Part shown: piece after piece, positions 4,234 through 10,026 of the stretch
Layout: every line of letters begins with the position of its first letter
Numbering within the stretch: the stretch's first letter is position 1
Assembly: GCA_017394475.1 (NCBI GenBank)
Contig: JAFPYQ010000388.1
Span: 1-14,391, forward strand
Source: Oscillospiraceae bacterium
GTDB taxonomy: Bacteria; Bacillota; Clostridia; Oscillospirales; Ruminococcaceae
Length of the DNA stretch: 14,391 nucleotides
Reading direction: 5' to 3'
The notes under the pieces: generated by a model
Told to the model about the DNA's origin: nothing
Seen by the model: the letters and a program-made list of their open reading frames with translations, nothing else
Databases searched by the model: none
Translations under genes and position numbers: made by a program

Positions 4234-4794
4234 ATGGATGACAACGCGATCGTTGAGCTTTATTTAAAAAGAAACCAAAGAGCCATATCGGAAACAAAGG
4301 ATAAATACGGTTCACGGCTGCGCTCACAGGCAAAGCGCATCACCGCGGATGATTTCACCGCAGATGAATGTGAGAACGACACATATATGCAGGCGTGGAA
4401 CAGTATCCCGCCCAATGAACCGAGAACATATCTGTACGCCTACCTTGCAAGGATAGTGCGCCATATAGCGCTCAACCGCTGCGAAATGAACAACGCGCAG
4501 AAAAGACAGGCATATCTTGTGGATATCGAGGATGAGATGGAGCAGTGCATAGCCGCTCCCGACGATACCGAGAAGGTCATAGACGATCTGGTGTTCAAGG
4601 AATCCATAGACCGCTTTCTGTCAAAGCTGGATGAGGACAAGAGGAACATCTTCGTCCGCAGGTATTTTTTTATGGACGATATAAAAGAGATAGCCGAAAG
4701 ATATGATTATTCCGAAAGCAAGATAAAATCGATGCTGATGCGTCTGCGGGAAAAGCTCAGGGAACATTTTGAAAAAGATGGTATTTTTTCATAG
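4234..4794 (+). CDS. ECF-like sigma-70 family RNA polymerase sigma factor
   Basis: A 186-residue protein with the two-domain layout of ECF sigma factors. Region 2 spans about 7-90, with WNSIPPNEPRTYLYAYLARI and the conserved helix IVRHIALNRCE, which contributes to -10 recognition. An acidic linker (about 95-120) leads to region 4 at about 125-180, with LDEDKRNIFVRRYF and a helix-turn-helix IKEIAERYDYSESKIKSMLMRLREKL, expected to bind the -35 element. It directs RNA polymerase to a small target set. The ribosome site is GGAAGTG 6 bases before the ATG. No good promoter is visible in the 66-base gap upstream. Eighteen bases after its stop codon is the element at 4812-4845, repeated before the surface-protein gene at 7234, making it the best local candidate for the factor's target. 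Stationary-phase or general sigma domains 1 and 3 are absent. Confidence 0.87.
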   Translation: MDDNAIVELYLKRNQRAISETKDKYGSRLRSQAKRITADDFTADECENDTYMQAWNSIPPNEPRTYLYAYLARIVRHIALNRCEMNNAQKRQAYLVDIEDEMEQCIAAPDDTEKVIDDLVFKESIDRFLSKLDEDKRNIFVRRYFFMDDIKEIAERYDYSESKIKSMLMRLREKLREHFEKDGIFS

Positions 4795-4811: not shown

Positions 4812-4845
4812 GCAACGCAGACAGTCAGAAATCTGCTTATATATA
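4812..4845 (+). promoter_or_regulatory. ECF-type promoter element, copy 1
   Basis: GCAACGCAGA (4812-4821), 7 variable bases, then AAATCTGCTTATATATA (4829-4845). It is identical outside the 7-base spacer to 7155-7188. AAC in the upstream block is typical of ECF -35 elements. The distance from AAC to CTGCTTA is 16 bases, as expected of such promoters. GCAGA and TCTGC also form an inverted repeat with a 10-base spacer, so a dyad operator is the alternative reading. Transcription would start near 4850, a few bases before the ribosome site of the two-span gene. Confidence 0.7.
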
Positions 4846-4873
4846 CAGAGAGCAGAAAAAGGAGATGGACTTG

Positions 4874-5185
4874 ATGGACGGAAAATACCTTCTTGAAAAA
4901 ATGGAACTTATAGACCCCGTTTATATCGAGGCGGCTGAGAAAAAGCCGTGCAAAAAGATCGTGATATGGCCGTATTATGCTGCGATGGCAGCCTGCATCG
5001 CCGTTATGATCTTCTCGGGGTATGACCTGTTTACCACACAGTATGAAGGGATATCGCCCTTTGCCGTTATCAATTCCGCAAGCATATTCGGAGACGGCAG
5101 TTTAGCCCTCTTAATATTTATTTCTGCTGCCCTCGTCACGGCAGCGCTGGCGGCGGTAATAATACAAAGGAGGAAACAAAAATGA
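4874..5185 (+). CDS. Small two-span membrane protein, probable anti-sigma factor
   Basis: A 103-residue protein. The ATG at 4874 is chosen over the in-frame ATG at 4865 because AAAAGGAG abuts the first and lies 9 bases from the second. The N-terminal cytoplasmic stretch (1-28) reads LLEKMELIDPVYIEAAEKKP, resembling the short 'IDxxYIEEA' tails I recall on membrane proteins encoded behind ECF sigma genes in Clostridia. Two hydrophobic segments follow (about 29-50 and 76-97), with an outside loop of about 25 residues and a basic cytoplasmic end RRKQK. Position and topology suggest it holds the sigma factor at the membrane. No zinc-binding HxxxCxxC anti-sigma motif is present. It is transcribed from the element at 4812-4845, so the sigma factor may drive its own inhibitor. 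Its TGA overlaps the next ATG (ATGA), implying translational coupling. Confidence 0.72.
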   Translation: MDGKYLLEKMELIDPVYIEAAEKKPCKKIVIWPYYAAMAACIAVMIFSGYDLFTTQYEGISPFAVINSASIFGDGSLALLIFISAALVTAALAAVIIQRRKQK

Positions 5186-5433
5186 ACGATAATTGCAGAC
5201 TTGACATGGATACACTCGAAAAGGTGAGCGGCGGCGCAGCAGCTCCCGCAGATGAATCGGCAGAAAAGCTCAAGGAGCTCAAAGAGGCTCTGAAAGAGCT
5301 GGCACCCGATTATACAGGCCACCGGATCCTCGCCCTTGCTGACAAGTGGGAAAAGAACGGCTACCAGCCCAGTGCAAGAGAGTTCGTAGCACAGGAACTG
5401 GGAATTGACTCTGCCAACATCAGGACACAGTGA
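5182..5433 (+). CDS. Peptide with double-glycine leader, secreted bacteriocin or signal candidate
   Basis: An 83-residue protein with a strong ribosome site (AAAGGAGG, 8 bases before ATG) and a four-base overlap with the gene before it. Residues 1-18 fit the class II bacteriocin/peptide leader: L7 at -12, L12 at -7, V15 at -4, then G17-G18 at the end of LDMDTLEKVSGG. A C39-peptidase ABC transporter would cut after G18; none is encoded in the window. The 65-residue remainder is not a typical hydrophobic, Gly-rich bacteriocin core. It has a charged amphipathic helix (SAEKLKELKEALKELAP), then what looks like a small folded helical region (HRILALADKWEKNGYQPSAR) and an acidic end. No Cys occurs in the putative core, ruling out lanthionine formation there. 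It could be an export-processed signal peptide, an immunity-like or effector protein, or a cytosolic protein with a chance leader. Confidence 0.78.
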   Translation: MNDNCRLDMDTLEKVSGGAAAPADESAEKLKELKEALKELAPDYTGHRILALADKWEKNGYQPSAREFVAQELGIDSANIRTQ

Positions 5434-5445
5434 TCATAAAAAATG

Positions 5446-5475
5446 CTCTCCCGTCAAAGCGGCGGGAGAGTTTTT
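5446..5475 (+). terminator. Intrinsic terminator between convergent units, probably bidirectional
   Basis: CTCTCCCG (5446-5453) and CGGGAGAG (5463-5470) form an 8-base stem followed by TTTTT. On the other strand the stem is followed within three bases by a run of six T. It ends the GG-peptide unit and, in reverse, the PrsW unit, whose stop codon is at 5478-5476. Confidence 0.88.
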
Positions 5476-6141
5476 CTATATGTCCTGTTCCTCTGTATGC
5501 ACATCTGTGCTGTTTTTTCTGTTTCTGATCATGGTCATGATCACCACGGGGATATACACCATTGAAGGGAGTATCAGCGCTGCTGCCCTGTATTCGGACT
5601 GTACCAGCACATTGAAGGTGGCGTGGAATATGATGGCGGTGATGAGCAAAGCGAAGGTGCCGCTGTAAAATAGCTTTCTGCGCTTGCGTATATAGCTCAT
5701 GCCCATGCCCACGCAGGCAGTGCAGGCACCGTGCATCAGTGCAGCCCCTATCACCCTTGCAAGTGCCCACGAGATGGTGACGGACTTGATATACTGGGTG
5801 AGTATGGTGGCATTTTCGAGCACTGCAAAGCCTATGCCCAGTGCAAAGGATATAGACAGCAGCGTATCCCTGTCATCGGAGAATATCAGTGCGAAATACA
5901 GTATGGGGATCGCTTTGAGGAGTTCCTCGGAAATAGGGGTTATAGTGGTGGTGACATAATCCATATCATTCCCGAAGGCGTGGAGCAGCAGCGTGTTTAT
6001 CTGCCCTGCCACAAGGCATATCACCGCCCCTGTTATCATATACCCCAGTATCAGGCGGGAACGCTTGTCTGGAAGAATAAGGAGCATGGGTATCATAGGC
6101 ATGGCTATGCACACGAAAAGTATCTGTATCATCTGCTCCAT
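5476..6141 (-). CDS. prsW: PrsW-family intramembrane metalloprotease
   Basis: A 221-residue polytopic membrane protein. All PrsW-family motifs are visible: the acidic pair ISEELLK (E72, E73, K76), GFAVLEN (E109, N110), MHGACTACVGMG (H137) and FHATFN (H173, N177). In Bacillus subtilis, PrsW (218 residues) makes the first cut in the anti-sigma factor RsiW, releasing an ECF sigma factor. The target here is unknown, but a small membrane anti-sigma candidate is encoded about 0.9 kb away. The start at 6141 is chosen because AAGGGGGTGA lies just upstream and the protein then begins MEQMIQILFV at the first membrane span. A longer frame from 6204 adds 21 unconvincing residues inside the upstream gene. 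It overlaps the end of the upstream membrane-protein gene by 13 bases, implying coupled translation. The symbol is by family likeness, not proven orthology. Confidence 0.85.
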   Translation of the reverse strand: MEQMIQILFVCIAMPMIPMLLILPDKRSRLILGYMITGAVICLVAGQINTLLLHAFGNDMDYVTTTITPISEELLKAIPILYFALIFSDDRDTLLSISFALGIGFAVLENATILTQYIKSVTISWALARVIGAALMHGACTACVGMGMSYIRKRRKLFYSGTFALLITAIIFHATFNVLVQSEYRAAALILPSMVYIPVVIMTMIRNRKNSTDVHTEEQDI

Positions 6142-6779
6142 GCTCTCACCCCCTTGTCCATCACGGGTATCATGAACAGCGTTATGATACACTGAGAGAT
6201 GCACACAAACAGCAGCATATCATTTATCCCGTAGGCTATGAGCCCCTTTTCCGTCATACACAGCAGCCCGTAGGCAAGGGCAAGGGCATTGTAGCCCCGC
6301 TGGCAGCGCACCACGCCGTAATCCACATCGGGGATGACCAGGTGCTTCATGTGGAAGTAGGCAGCAGCCCCGATGAATATGGCTGCGATGCCGTCTGTCG
6401 TCCTTTCCGCTGCGGTGGCGGGGCTCATCATTATCCATATATACATAAGGATGATGACAGCCACGGGGATGAACGGTATCAGGCGATATTTGTTATAGTC
6501 CTCCCTGCCGTCATCCACAAGAGAATCTATCTGGCCGTAGTTTGCGGAGAAAAAAAAGGAGAAGGCGCCTATGGTGCCGAGTATCCCCACATGGAACACC
6601 CCGGAAGATGAAAACCCCGTCATCAGCCGCAGGAAGCTGTAAAGATGCCCCAGAGCGATGCACCCCGTCCCCAGGACTATCATCGAGGCATACAGCGGCT
6701 TGTGAGGCTGCAGATATCTGAACGCTCCGTAAACAAATCCCAGAGCGGCAGCTATAGTCATAGCAAGTTCATAGTACAT
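6129..6779 (-). CDS. Polytopic membrane protein encoded upstream of PrsW
   Basis: A 216-residue protein of no family I recognise. Six or seven hydrophobic segments can be seen at about 3-20, 29-50, 58-78, 101-119, 128-145, 162-178 and 186-205, with a charged loop DSLVDDGREDYNKYR (85-99) and little soluble mass. The start at 6779 is chosen because AAGGATG lies 6 bases upstream. Longer open frame upstream reaches into the repeats and promoters at 6889-7081 and is not credible coding sequence. Its stop codon overlaps the PrsW start by 13 bases, so the two products are probably made together and may work together, for example as sensor and protease. Transcription is likely from 6917-6889, giving a leader of about 100 bases. 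Confidence 0.78.
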   Translation of the reverse strand: MYYELAMTIAAALGFVYGAFRYLQPHKPLYASMIVLGTGCIALGHLYSFLRLMTGFSSSGVFHVGILGTIGAFSFFFSANYGQIDSLVDDGREDYNKYRLIPFIPVAVIILMYIWIMMSPATAAERTTDGIAAIFIGAAAYFHMKHLVIPDVDYGVVRCQRGYNALALAYGLLCMTEKGLIAYGINDMLLFVCISQCIITLFMIPVMDKGVRAWSR

Positions 6780-6827
6780 GATCAACATCCTTATCAGGCA
6801 GGAGATGGATACCGCGAAAACGTAAAT

Positions 6828-6856
6828 TTGACAAGTCGGGCTCAAAATGGTATAAT
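6828..6856 (+). promoter_or_regulatory. Consensus sigma-A promoter facing the surface-protein gene
   Basis: TTGACA (6828-6833), exactly 17 bases, TATAAT (6851-6856), with TG at the extended -10 position (TGGTATAAT). This is a perfect match to the housekeeping consensus. Transcription would start near 6863 and run right through both direct repeats toward 7234, leaving a leader of about 370 bases, or making a short non-coding RNA. No open reading frame with a ribosome site follows closely. Confidence 0.8.
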
Positions 6857-6888
6857 TATGAAAACGGATGCTCACGGTACCACATATC

Positions 6889-6917
6889 AGTTTACCACAA
6901 TCCCCCTCCAATGTCAA
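6889..6917 (-). promoter_or_regulatory. Sigma-A promoter for the PrsW operon
   Basis: On the minus strand, TTGACA (6917-6912), 17 bases, TAAACT (6894-6889), with TG in the extended position (TGGTAAACT). Start near 6882, reading left into the membrane-protein and PrsW genes. Its -35 box lies 8 bases from the first direct repeat. Confidence 0.72.
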
Positions 6918-6925
6918 GGCATGCA

Positions 6926-6985
6926 GGCTGAGCCTGCACCCTCCTCGTTGATTTTTTTTGAGAAAGCCGTTCATTTTGCGACCCG
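6926..6985. repeat. Direct repeat, copy 1
   Basis: A 60-base unit running from GGCTGAGCCTGCACC to TTTTGCGACCCG. It matches copy 2 except for one base and two extra T in the T-run (8 T here, 6 in copy 2). At its left edge GCAGGCT-G-AGCCTGC (6924-6938) is a perfect palindrome. It has no terminal inverted repeats or coding capacity that would mark it as an insertion sequence. Confidence 0.85.
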
Positions 6986-7023
6986 GTAATTCATTTGACC
7001 GCTCAGATCTCATACAATATTTG

Positions 7024-7081
7024 GGCTGAGCCTGCACCCTCCTCGTTGGTTTTTTGAGAAAGCCGTTCATTTTGCGACCCG
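7024..7081. repeat. Direct repeat, copy 2
   Basis: A 58-base second copy, starting 98 bases after the first and separated from it by 38 unrelated bases. The left palindrome is shortened here (GGCT-G-AGCC). Near-identity over 58 bases in non-coding DNA suggests recent duplication or selection on a binding or RNA function. Confidence 0.85.
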
Positions 7082-7154
7082 ACCGTTTTTGTCGCAGGTT
7101 CATTACATTATGTAGACGGCTGACAGTGCACCCGTTCACACAGATACAGAAAGT

Positions 7155-7188
7155 GCAACGCAGATATGAAAAAATCTGCTTATATATA
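7155..7188 (+). promoter_or_regulatory. ECF-type promoter element, copy 2
   Basis: GCAACGCAGA (7155-7164), 7 bases, AAATCTGCTTATATATA (7172-7188). All 27 bases outside the spacer are identical to 4812-4845, and the spacer has the same length. It lies 45 bases before the ATG of the surface-protein gene, so transcription from near 7193 would give a leader of about 40 bases containing the ribosome site. Confidence 0.72.
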
Positions 7189-7233: not shown

Positions 7234-10026
7234 ATGACAAAGACAAAAAAGCGGATGATCGGCATCCTCACCGCAGCATCAATGGTCATGGCCATCGGGG
7301 CTGCTGATGCCATCGTCGGTACATATACGGATCATTCACTGATAGGCTGCACGGCAAGTGCGGCGGGAGAAGTGAGCTTTGTGGATGAAGCCGGCTATAT
7401 AAGATCCGAAAGTCAGTATAACATCATCGATGAATACACGGGCACATTTGAAGGCGGATGGTATGTGGCGAAGGGCAATGTGACCATAGACAGCCGCATA
7501 TACTCCTACGGCACCGTGAACATCATCCTTGAAAACGGCTGCAGACTCATCGCAAAGGACGGCATAAACATAGATGCGGGCGGCACGCTCAATATCTATA
7601 CCCAGAACGGCGGTTCGGGCACGCTCTATGCAGGCACCTCCAACGGCACCAACACCACTGCGGGCAGGAACTGCTCGGGCATCGGCGGTGATGATGCGAA
7701 TATCAACATAATCGGCGGAAAGGTATATGCAAAGGGCGGTTCGGGTGCCTATGGCATCTCGGGTTCATCCATTTCCCTTGGGTGGACAAATCCCGGCGAT
7801 CTGGTACAGTGCTCATCCTACAGCACACAGGTGGATATAACCAAGATATTTGCGGACAGATCAACGGGCACTGTCTATGATATCGGGACCGTTACCGCCT
7901 CGAACGCCAGGAACGTTATCCTTTCGGGAGCGGAGGTAGTAGACCGTGATACCACCGTTCTCGGGAACGGCACCTATGTTGTGATGGCAAATGTCACCGT
8001 CCCCGATCGCATGGAAGTAAACGGAAATGCTGCCCTCATCCTCACAAGGGGGGTGTATCTCAGGGCGGAAAAGGGCATCACCGTGGCAAACGATGATTCT
8101 CTGACGATCTACGGCACCACAGGCAAGCTCTACGCAGGCACCAGAAACGGCACCGACTGCACCGCTGATGACGGATATGCGGGACTTGGCGCTGCAGCAG
8201 GCACGAAAGCGGGCACTGTCACCATAGACGGCGGCACTGTATATGCAAACGGCGGGCGAAATGCGGCGGGCCTTGGCGGAGCGGATGCCCATATCGAGAT
8301 AAACAACGGCACTGTCACTGCCACAGGCGGCACAAACGGCGCAGGCATCGGCAGCGGGTACGCTGAGAGCGGCAGCAGGATAGATATAAACGGCGGCAAT
8401 GTAACTGCCTATGGCGGGGATAATGCCGCAGGTATCGGCAATGGCGCAGATTCAAACGGCTCTGTCATATCCCTTAACTGGACAAAGTCGGGAGATTCGG
8501 TCTACGCCTCCTCATACAGGGGCGATGTGCGCTTCCTCAGGGATTTCATCATCCACGAGACCAATATGACCGCATCAAAGGACAATATAGACAACAAGAC
8601 CCTCACCCCCACCAGCGGCGCATATACCATAACCTTTGAGACCAACGGCGGCTCTCCGGTAGCACCTATGACAGCCGCACAGGGACAGCACCTGACCTTG
8701 CCCGCAGCTCCCATAAAGAATGGCTGCACCTTCAGCGGATGGTACCTTGACAAGAACTGCACCAAACCCTTTGAACCAAACAATATCCCCATAAACAAGG
8801 ACTATGTCCTCTATGCAAAATGGACAGCGGGCTCCCATACAGTTTCCTTCAACACCAACGGCGGCAGTTATATCGACCCTGTTTCCGTTCCCGAGGGCGG
8901 CTGTGCGGATATTTCAAAAGCACCGGTCAGAACGGGCTACACCTTCGGCGGATGGTACACCGACAGTGCTTTCAATGTCCGCTTTGACCCGAATGCCCGG
9001 ATATACAGCGATATCATGCTTTACGCCAAGTGGACGGCTTCTCAGGTGACAGTCACCTTTGAGACCAACGGCGGCAGCTACACCCCGCCCATGACCGTGA
9101 ACAGCGGTGAGTATCTGACCACTCTGCCGGGCTGTACCAGAAACGGCTATGCCTTTGCGGGATGGTACCTGAACAGGAGCTTTACTCAGAAAGCCACAGA
9201 TGCTCCCGTGACAAAGAACACGGTGCTCTATGCAAAGTGGACGGAAAACATATCCTATGTGACGGTGAACTTTGATCCCTGCGGCGGCTCCTATGTGGCA
9301 TCACAGAAGGTACAGAGCGGCAGCAATATCTCCGACCCGTACTGCTACCGTGACGGATACAGGTTCACAGGCTGGTGGCAGGACAGTGCACAGGCAGGCA
9401 GCCCCTATGATTTCAGCCGCCCCGTCACCGCTGATATGACCCTCTACGCAGGCTGGGAAAGCGATGTTCCCGTATACTACAATGTGCGATACATCACCAA
9501 CGGCGGCTCCTACTGCCCGCCTTCCATGGTGCGCGCAGGGACATTCATAAACGATATCCCCGCCCCTGTGATGACAGACTATGTATTTGACGGCTGGTTC
9601 ACCGATGCGGACTGCACCATCCCCTATGACTATTCCGCAGTAAACAGCGACATCACCCTCTATGCCCGCTGGACACAGGCAGCAGCCTATGTGACAGTGA
9701 CCTTTGACCCCTGCGGAGGCACCTATGTTGCATCCCAGACGGTAAGGGAGGGCGGATATATCTCCGAGCCCACCTGCTACAGAGAAGGCTACATATTCAC
9801 AGGCTGGTGGGAAAACGGCTCGCAGACAGGCAGTCCCTACAGCTTCGGCGACCCTGTCAACAGCAGCAAGGTGCTCTACGCAGGCTGGGTAGAAGACCCC
9901 AATTACAGCGGCGCTTACTATTACGGCTCCAGCTTCGGCGGCATCGGCACCACCGCAGCCATAGCAGCGGCAGCAGCCCTTATAAGCTCGCTCATCACCG
10001 CCATCATCATGAAAAAGCGCAAGTGA
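7234..10026 (+). CDS. Secreted, membrane-anchored InlB-repeat surface protein
   Basis: A 930-residue protein. The ATG at 7234 is chosen because AAGAAGGA lies about 5 bases upstream and a clear signal peptide follows (KTKKR, then a hydrophobic stretch about 8-24; possible cuts after ADA26 or ASA43). Residues about 65-435 are two homologous halves of Gly/Asn-rich beta-strand repeats (such as AGTRNGT, GGTVYANGG, AGIGNG), suggesting a solenoid or carbohydrate-binding-like fold. Six Listeria-Bacteroides (InlB B-type) repeats follow at about 464-531, 535-601, 605-670, 675-741, 748-814 and 819-885, each ending in YAKW, YAGW or YARW. A C-terminal membrane span (about 903-926) ends in KKRK. There is no LPxTG, so sortase is not implied. 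The likely role is adhesion or surface binding; no catalytic domain is visible. The ECF-like element at 7155-7188 is its proximal promoter. Confidence 0.9.
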   Translation: MTKTKKRMIGILTAASMVMAIGAADAIVGTYTDHSLIGCTASAAGEVSFVDEAGYIRSESQYNIIDEYTGTFEGGWYVAKGNVTIDSRIYSYGTVNIILENGCRLIAKDGINIDAGGTLNIYTQNGGSGTLYAGTSNGTNTTAGRNCSGIGGDDANINIIGGKVYAKGGSGAYGISGSSISLGWTNPGDLVQCSSYSTQVDITKIFADRSTGTVYDIGTVTASNARNVILSGAEVVDRDTTVLGNGTYVVMANVTVPDRMEVNGNAALILTRGVYLRAEKGITVANDDSLTIYGTTGKLYAGTRNGTDCTADDGYAGLGAAAGTKAGTVTIDGGTVYANGGRNAAGLGGADAHIEINNGTVTATGGTNGAGIGSGYAESGSRIDINGGNVTAYGGDNAAGIGNGADSNGSVISLNWTKSGDSVYASSYRGDVRFLRDFIIHETNMTASKDNIDNKTLTPTSGAYTITFETNGGSPVAPMTAAQGQHLTLPAAPIKNGCTFSGWYLDKNCTKPFEPNNIPINKDYVLYAKWTAGSHTVSFNTNGGSYIDPVSVPEGGCADISKAPVRTGYTFGGWYTDSAFNVRFDPNARIYSDIMLYAKWTASQVTVTFETNGGSYTPPMTVNSGEYLTTLPGCTRNGYAFAGWYLNRSFTQKATDAPVTKNTVLYAKWTENISYVTVNFDPCGGSYVASQKVQSGSNISDPYCYRDGYRFTGWWQDSAQAGSPYDFSRPVTADMTLYAGWESDVPVYYNVRYITNGGSYCPPSMVRAGTFINDIPAPVMTDYVFDGWFTDADCTIPYDYSAVNSDITLYARWTQAAAYVTVTFDPCGGTYVASQTVREGGYISEPTCYREGYIFTGWWENGSQTGSPYSFGDPVNSSKVLYAGWVEDPNYSGAYYYGSSFGGIGTTAAIAAAAALISSLITAIIMKKRK
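8623..9888 (+). repeat. Six tandem InlB-type repeat units within the surface-protein gene
   Basis: Units of about 67-72 codons. Units 1, 2, 3 and 5 have a TNGGS motif and GWY or GWF. Units 4 and 6 are a distinct subtype (FDPCGG, YVASQ, CYRDGY or CYREGY, GWW, GSPY, YAGW), each with two extra conserved Cys. Unit 5 sits between them, pointing to a 4-5-6 pattern made by duplication of a two-unit block or by gene conversion. Confidence 0.85.

Follow-up and report, generated by a model that had tools for sequence, protein, structure and literature searches.

Among the closest described systems is that of Bacillus subtilis SigW, RsiW, PrsW, and RasP, in which PrsW cuts RsiW and the SigW regulon includes noncoding RNAs (excerpts of PMC3498285). 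The locus examined here, in a 14,391-nucleotide stretch of an Oscillospiraceae bacterium contig (JAFPYQ010000388.1; this whole stretch is "the window"), is similar in having an extracytoplasmic function (ECF) sigma factor, a membrane anti-sigma factor (a candidate here), and a PrsW-family protease. It also carries two copies of a 34-base element, which is very probably a promoter recognized by the ECF sigma factor whose gene occupies positions 4234 to 4794, a dependence suggested by their co-occurrence. Several features differ from the SigW system: the first membrane segment of the anti-sigma-like protein is preceded by only ∼30 residues, CTGC takes the place of the −10 box, a copy of the element precedes the candidate anti-sigma gene itself but not the sigma gene, and the PrsW-like protein scores far below the NCBIfam cutoff for the PrsW equivalog. 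Escherichia coli RpoE provides a second parallel, as an ECF factor driving the small RNAs (sRNAs) MicA, RybB, and MicL (excerpts of PMC8103513), and two sRNA-like transcripts are predicted in one related genome (G010); however, the bacteria and sequences are unrelated, and no element copy lies upstream of the sigma gene here. A third comparison comes from within the Clostridia, with the ECF factors CsfT, CsfU, and SigV of Clostridioides difficile. PrsW is linked to ECF expression in C. difficile by a title cited in PMC7438776, and excerpts of the same source give the promoter consensus of the C. difficile ECF factors as still unidentified, so that those promoters are not comparable with the present element. 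A literature search found no publications on this system, most subscription papers being outside its reach.

The two copies of the element (positions 4812 to 4845 and 7155 to 7188, both on the + strand) are identical without a mismatch around a 7-base spacer, as a preliminary description had reported. The pattern drawn from this pair, GCAACGCAGA-N7-AAATCTGCTTATATATA, has exactly two matches in the window, both on the + strand, and no third at up to 3 mismatches (200 shuffles, mean of 0.00); the window's own genome (G000; 2.26 Mb in 477 contigs, 72% complete) has no further match at up to 3 mismatches, and the reversed control gave 0. Distances to the flanking genes also agree with that description: 17 bases separate copy 1 from the sigma gene, which ends at 4794, and 45 bases separate copy 2 from the ATG at 7234. 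The reading of the matching blocks as promoter boxes stands for the boxes themselves but not for their extent: the core conserved across genomes, GC[A/G]AC-N16-CTGCTTATAT, is shorter than the blocks that the window copies share, and the additional CAGA and AAAT common to the pair are mostly local. In the window, the core has the form GCAAC-N16-CTGCTTATAT and occupies 4812 to 4842 (+) in copy 1 and 7155 to 7185 (+) in copy 2, with predicted transcript starts near 4847 and 7190, respectively, by SigW numbering (excerpts of PMC6713349). This places the start ∼1 to 3 bases past the 34-mer rather than the 5 to 8 bases originally proposed.

The shorter core became apparent from G010. Among 20 genomes of the genus, the window's included, a close homolog of the sigma factor was found only in G010 (64% identity), the next best being a second copy in the same genome (45%). 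GCGACCTGCCCCTGCTGAAATCTGCTTATAT stands 3′ of the G010 sigma gene and is followed by a gene homologous to the one that encodes the small membrane protein downstream of copy 1 in the window. Because this site keeps the boxes and spacing of the window copies but not the arms of their inverted repeat, the conserved unit is taken to be GC[AG]AC-N16-CTGCTTATAT. The same comparison bears on whether the element is instead an operator dyad, with arms GCAGA and TCTGC to which a repressor or activator binds, transcription being driven from a different promoter. Both window copies do have arms of 5 to 6 bases, and both can fold as 34-mers, copy 2 better than its shuffled sequences (z of −3.55; copy 1, z of −0.94); nevertheless, an arm of at least 5 bases is absent in 16 of 19 sites (one of these 16 has 4), and the hairpin or dyad reading, which we regard as improbable, was rejected.

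The final pattern has four exact matches and no one-mismatch match in G010, and two exact and two one-mismatch matches in G000. One of the two one-mismatch matches (G000:C389) is 41 nucleotides (nt) upstream of the start codon of a gene for an exported protein containing Big_2 domains. Used alone as the query, the small anti-sigma-like protein found no relatives in the genome contigs, and a second scan therefore used an alignment of the two sigma proteins. Across GTDB species, this gave five loci at 64 to 68% identity and eight at 41 to 45%. One of the five was taken as G010; the other four are in G409 to G412, comprising two metagenome-assembled genomes from the rumen or omasum of water deer and two uncultured Clostridia. 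Allowing one mismatch, these four genomes have 19 matches to the pattern (control, 3), 12 of them at regulon positions, and in each the element precedes both the small membrane protein gene and the surface-protein homolog; seven matches (G409:C173, G410:C46, and G412:C3, C40, C66, C97, and C158) were set aside as nonregulon. The surface genes of G411 and G412 are preceded by three tandem copies 80 to 93 nt apart (L172:7640-7918 and L173:5233-5395, both on the − strand); in G411, the spacing within the middle copy is N15, and the array includes a worn fourth copy.

The DNA pattern alone led to further loci. Among 99 relatives of G409, exact GCRAC-N16-CTGCTTATWT gave 14 matches in 9 genomes (control, 0), 11 of which precede anti-sigma-like or surface genes; the remaining three (G439, G500, and G409:C173) were set aside. 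This search added four genomes (G414, G436, G458, and G462), all of which have the sigma gene (62 to 67% identity), the sigma match ending 26 to 153 nt before the element. The other 90 of the 99 were without a pattern match, and the sigma gene was not searched for in them. In 396 genomes of the family, the pattern ending in TATAT had 10 matches in six genomes (control, 3): two in G000, four in G010, and one in each of four others (G047, G063, G123, and G293), so that more than one exact match occurs only in G000 and G010. None of the four single matches lies before an anti-sigma-like or surface-type gene, two are in open frames of >700 codons, and all four were set aside.

The resulting tally of ten genomes adds to the window's own the five identified through the sigma protein and the four identified through the DNA pattern alone. 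In all ten, the element precedes the small membrane protein gene, and it precedes the beta-helix/InlB-repeat surface gene in all nine in which that gene was seen in the fetched stretches, although the G414 surface site has two mismatches. Looking beside orthologous sigma genes was one of the checks proposed at the outset, and its outcome bears out the proposal of a promoter recognized by one sigma factor: the element recurs beside those genes, before few related genes, and mostly outside coding sequence. Two boxes, a fixed 16-base spacing, and the same downstream genes in ten genomes are thus established at the level of sequence comparison.

That the neighboring sigma factor, rather than a paralogous ECF factor of the same cell, reads the element is suggested by the position of its gene directly upstream, 24 to 153 nt before the element, in 8 of the 10 genomes, and by the finding that the close sigma ortholog and exact copies of the element coincide in the same two members of the 20-genome genus set. 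Paralogs do exist, the second factor of G010 (45% identity) and one in G411 (40%) ∼4 kb away, but recognition by such a paralog appears improbable.

The boxes themselves have a partly familiar form. The −35 box is GCAAC in most sites and GCGAC in 5 of 19, so that the AAC described as typical of ECF −35 boxes, an early ECF hallmark, is indeed present in 14 of 19. The −10 box is CTGC in 18 of 19 sites and CTGT in one. SigW-type promoters likewise have 16 bases between their AAAC and CGTA. Conservation beyond the search pattern was examined in 26 N16 sites from the ten genomes, leaving outside the matrices the N15 copy of the G411 array and the two-mismatch G414 surface site. An A-tract lies immediately upstream, and the 40 nt preceding the sites are 70% A+T, compared with a mean of 51% (standard deviation, 9) for random 40-mers from the same stretches, coding sequence included. 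Positions 35 to 38 are [TC]GA[AG] in 23 of 26 sites (TGAA in 18) but in none of seven exact matches elsewhere; the exceptions are window copy 1 and the G010 anti-sigma copy, both with CAGA, and one G411 array copy with TGTA. In SigW numbering the C of the −35 box is at −31 (excerpts of PMC6713349), and applying this here predicts a start near position 36, inside TGAA. A position matrix built from the 26 sites and run over 18 stretches scored these same sites at 35 to 58 bits; the only others above 14 bits were the G414 surface site (47.3) and the worn fourth copy of the G411 array (19.6), and reversed controls gave 0.

Conservation reaching to TGAA and beyond, together with the small hairpin at the start of some leaders, could also be explained if the block were part of a conserved leader, a cis-regulatory RNA whose transcription begins at a more upstream promoter. 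We consider this highly improbable: neither the window nor the two G010 sRNA loci has an Rfam match, and the spacer, although fixed in length, is unconserved and is unpaired in most sites.

Several observations weigh against reading the element as the promoter of the neighboring sigma factor. The ten genomes are related, and their sites are therefore not independent. The −10 box, CTGC, departs from CGT, which is described as an ECF hallmark (excerpts of PMC8103513) and counts as an early one since dropped as defining, and TGAA is missing from the two copies with CAGA. In G409 and G410, the sigma gene is on another contig (L133 and L134) than the anti-sigma and surface genes (L170 and L171), and the G010 surface protein was not seen in the fetched stretches, no genome-wide search having been made for it. 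Moreover, at 3 mismatches forward matches outnumber those of the reversed control, also where a genome has no sigma ortholog, so that loose matches have an unexplained background. A first relaxed pattern, AACGCAGA-N10-TCTGCTTATATA, gave 16 such matches in 10 of the 20 genus genomes (control, 1), with fewer than 3 mismatches only in the two window copies; it included spacer bases and missed all G010 sites. GCRAC-N12-AAATCTGCTTATAT at 3 mismatches gave 48 matches in the 20 genomes (control, 10), and the four with 0 or 1 mismatch are all in G000 and G010. With 2 mismatches allowed, the final pattern had 19 matches in G000 (control, 4) and 9 in G010 (control, 6), of which one G000 match with one mismatch (C3), 15 in G000 with two, and 5 in G010 with two were set aside as nonregulon.

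The regulon had been envisaged as one with feedback and output. Its targets do recur, but the feedback looks negative only, since the 500 nt preceding the sigma gene contain no element in any of the ten loci (best matrix score, −10.2). As read from these sequences, feedback falls on the candidate anti-sigma gene and not on the sigma gene, and positive autoregulation, an early ECF hallmark since dropped as defining, finds no support in them.

The sigma factor itself (186 amino acids [aa]; 4234 to 4794, +) matches Pfam Sigma70_r2 (residues 24 to 83), Sigma70_r4_2 (residues 123 to 175), and Sigma70_r4 as well as TIGR02937, all above cutoff, with no Pfam match to a sigma-3 domain at an E value of 0.1. 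An interdomain linker of <50 residues is given as an ECF criterion (excerpts of PMC8103513), and 39 residues separate the matched stretches here. No relative was found by sequence in the PDB at an E value of 0.001.

The small membrane protein (4865 to 5185, +; the start is more likely the ATG at 4874, judging from homologs and the ribosome-binding site) has no Pfam match. Alignment of six such proteins, to which four more fit by eye, revealed invariant residues in an N-terminal segment with the consensus LLEKMELIDPxYIExA, followed by two hydrophobic stretches joined by a short loop that ends in AS-x-F. In the G010 protein (L080:9311-9706) the N-terminal unit, LLEKMELIDPAYI, occurs twice in tandem. 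The partners of more distant ECF factors begin with a similar unit (by eye), which favors this unit as the part that holds the sigma factor. Class I anti-sigma factors have a four-helix cytoplasmic domain averaging ∼101 aa (excerpts of PMC7406223); the ∼30 residues before the first hydrophobic stretch do not accommodate such a domain, whereas their length would fit class II, in which a short domain of under ∼50 aa binds the sigma factor. The small membrane protein probably acts as the anti-sigma factor.

Its stop codon overlaps the start of a gene for a small protein (5182 to 5433, +) with a double-glycine (GG)-type leader, LEKVSGG, recognized by eye; the protein has no Pfam or NCBIfam match above cutoff. 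On the opposite strand is the gene for a PrsW-family membrane protease (5476 to 6204, −; start likely near 6141 by homologs), which scores 71.6 bits against PF13367 (cutoff, 23.5), placing it in the family, but only 28.4 bits against the PrsW equivalog NF033739 (cutoff, 225). Upstream of and overlapping it is a gene for a membrane protein of ∼216 aa (6129 to 6779, −), 58% identical to its G409 neighbor. Homologs of the PrsW-like protein that are 68 to 73% identical are linked in G409, G411, and G412, and the pair of PrsW-like and 216-aa genes is in the fetched stretch of 7 of the 10 genomes. G010 has a PrsW homolog elsewhere in its genome (42%), none was found in G410 at an E value of 0.001, and linkage in G436 was judged on its 10.3-kb contig only. 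On the strength of this linkage, there is about an even chance that the protease controls the circuit.

The exported surface protein (7234 to 10026, +) has a beta-helix part, six InlB-type repeats, which likewise occur in four of its homologs, and a C-terminal membrane anchor (by eye); it is 39% identical to its G409 counterpart over 837 columns. Just upstream of promoter copy 2 are two copies of a repeat unit (6926 to 6986 and 7024 to 7081; GGCTGAGCCTGCACCC to GCGACCCG by eye), and units resembling it are present in other contigs of the window's genome (L097 to L099).

Further targets are suggested in related genomes. The element stands before GG-leader protein genes in two genomes beyond the window's: in G409, where a further copy precedes another such gene, and in G010, where a copy in C28 (L107:3427-5548) is followed by a GG-leader protein with a LysM domain and then an ABC exporter gene with no C39 peptidase domain among its listed matches. 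Behind exact copies in C10 and C21 of G010 are the sRNA-like transcripts (L105:3115-3211, +, and L106:5849-5749, −), each predicted to carry a hairpin at its 5′ end, unpaired sequence that ends in CCTCCC, and a hairpin resembling a terminator; a terminator scanner listed the last of these for C10 but not for C21. Sigma-A-like promoters (12 of 12 and 11 of 12 matches, respectively) lie between these hairpins and the next genes, making free sRNAs of ∼97 and 101 nt (by arithmetic from the predicted start) likelier than leaders. A BLAST search of the 20 genus genomes with one of them returned only the self-match at an E value of <0.01. Judging from these predictions, the two transcripts are likely to be sRNAs, and the CCTCCC stretch looks suited to pair with ribosome-binding sites.

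We propose the following circuit. By its short N-terminal segment, the small membrane protein would tether the sigma factor to the membrane until, on a signal, the PrsW-family protease would cut it near the conserved, outward AS-x-F motif. The freed sigma factor would then transcribe the anti-sigma/GG-protein operon, providing negative feedback, and the adjoining surface protein gene; in the window's genome, it would also transcribe the second surface protein, with Big_2 domains. More speculatively, and with considerable doubt on our part, this might constitute a self-contained surface-remodeling circuit of rumen-type Clostridia, in which a minimal membrane anti-sigma factor (AS-x-F) and a dedicated PrsW pair form the sensor, and an ECF factor with negative feedback only drives a giant beta-helix/InlB-repeat protein, whose promoters number one to three in tandem, along with small GG-leader proteins, which may themselves be sensed back as the signal, and in one species also a pair of sRNAs with an unpaired stretch seemingly antisense to ribosome-binding sites.

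Sequence analysis alone assigns to an ECF sigma factor of uncultured gut bacteria a promoter of defined form, a set of targets, and a switch that is likely proteolytic. The promoter code, GCRAC-N16-CTGCTTATAT with TGAA where transcription is predicted to begin, lends itself to direct testing, and metatranscriptomes can be searched for it. Because the circuit acts mainly on a large surface protein, it may determine how these cells encounter the host, fiber, or their neighbors.

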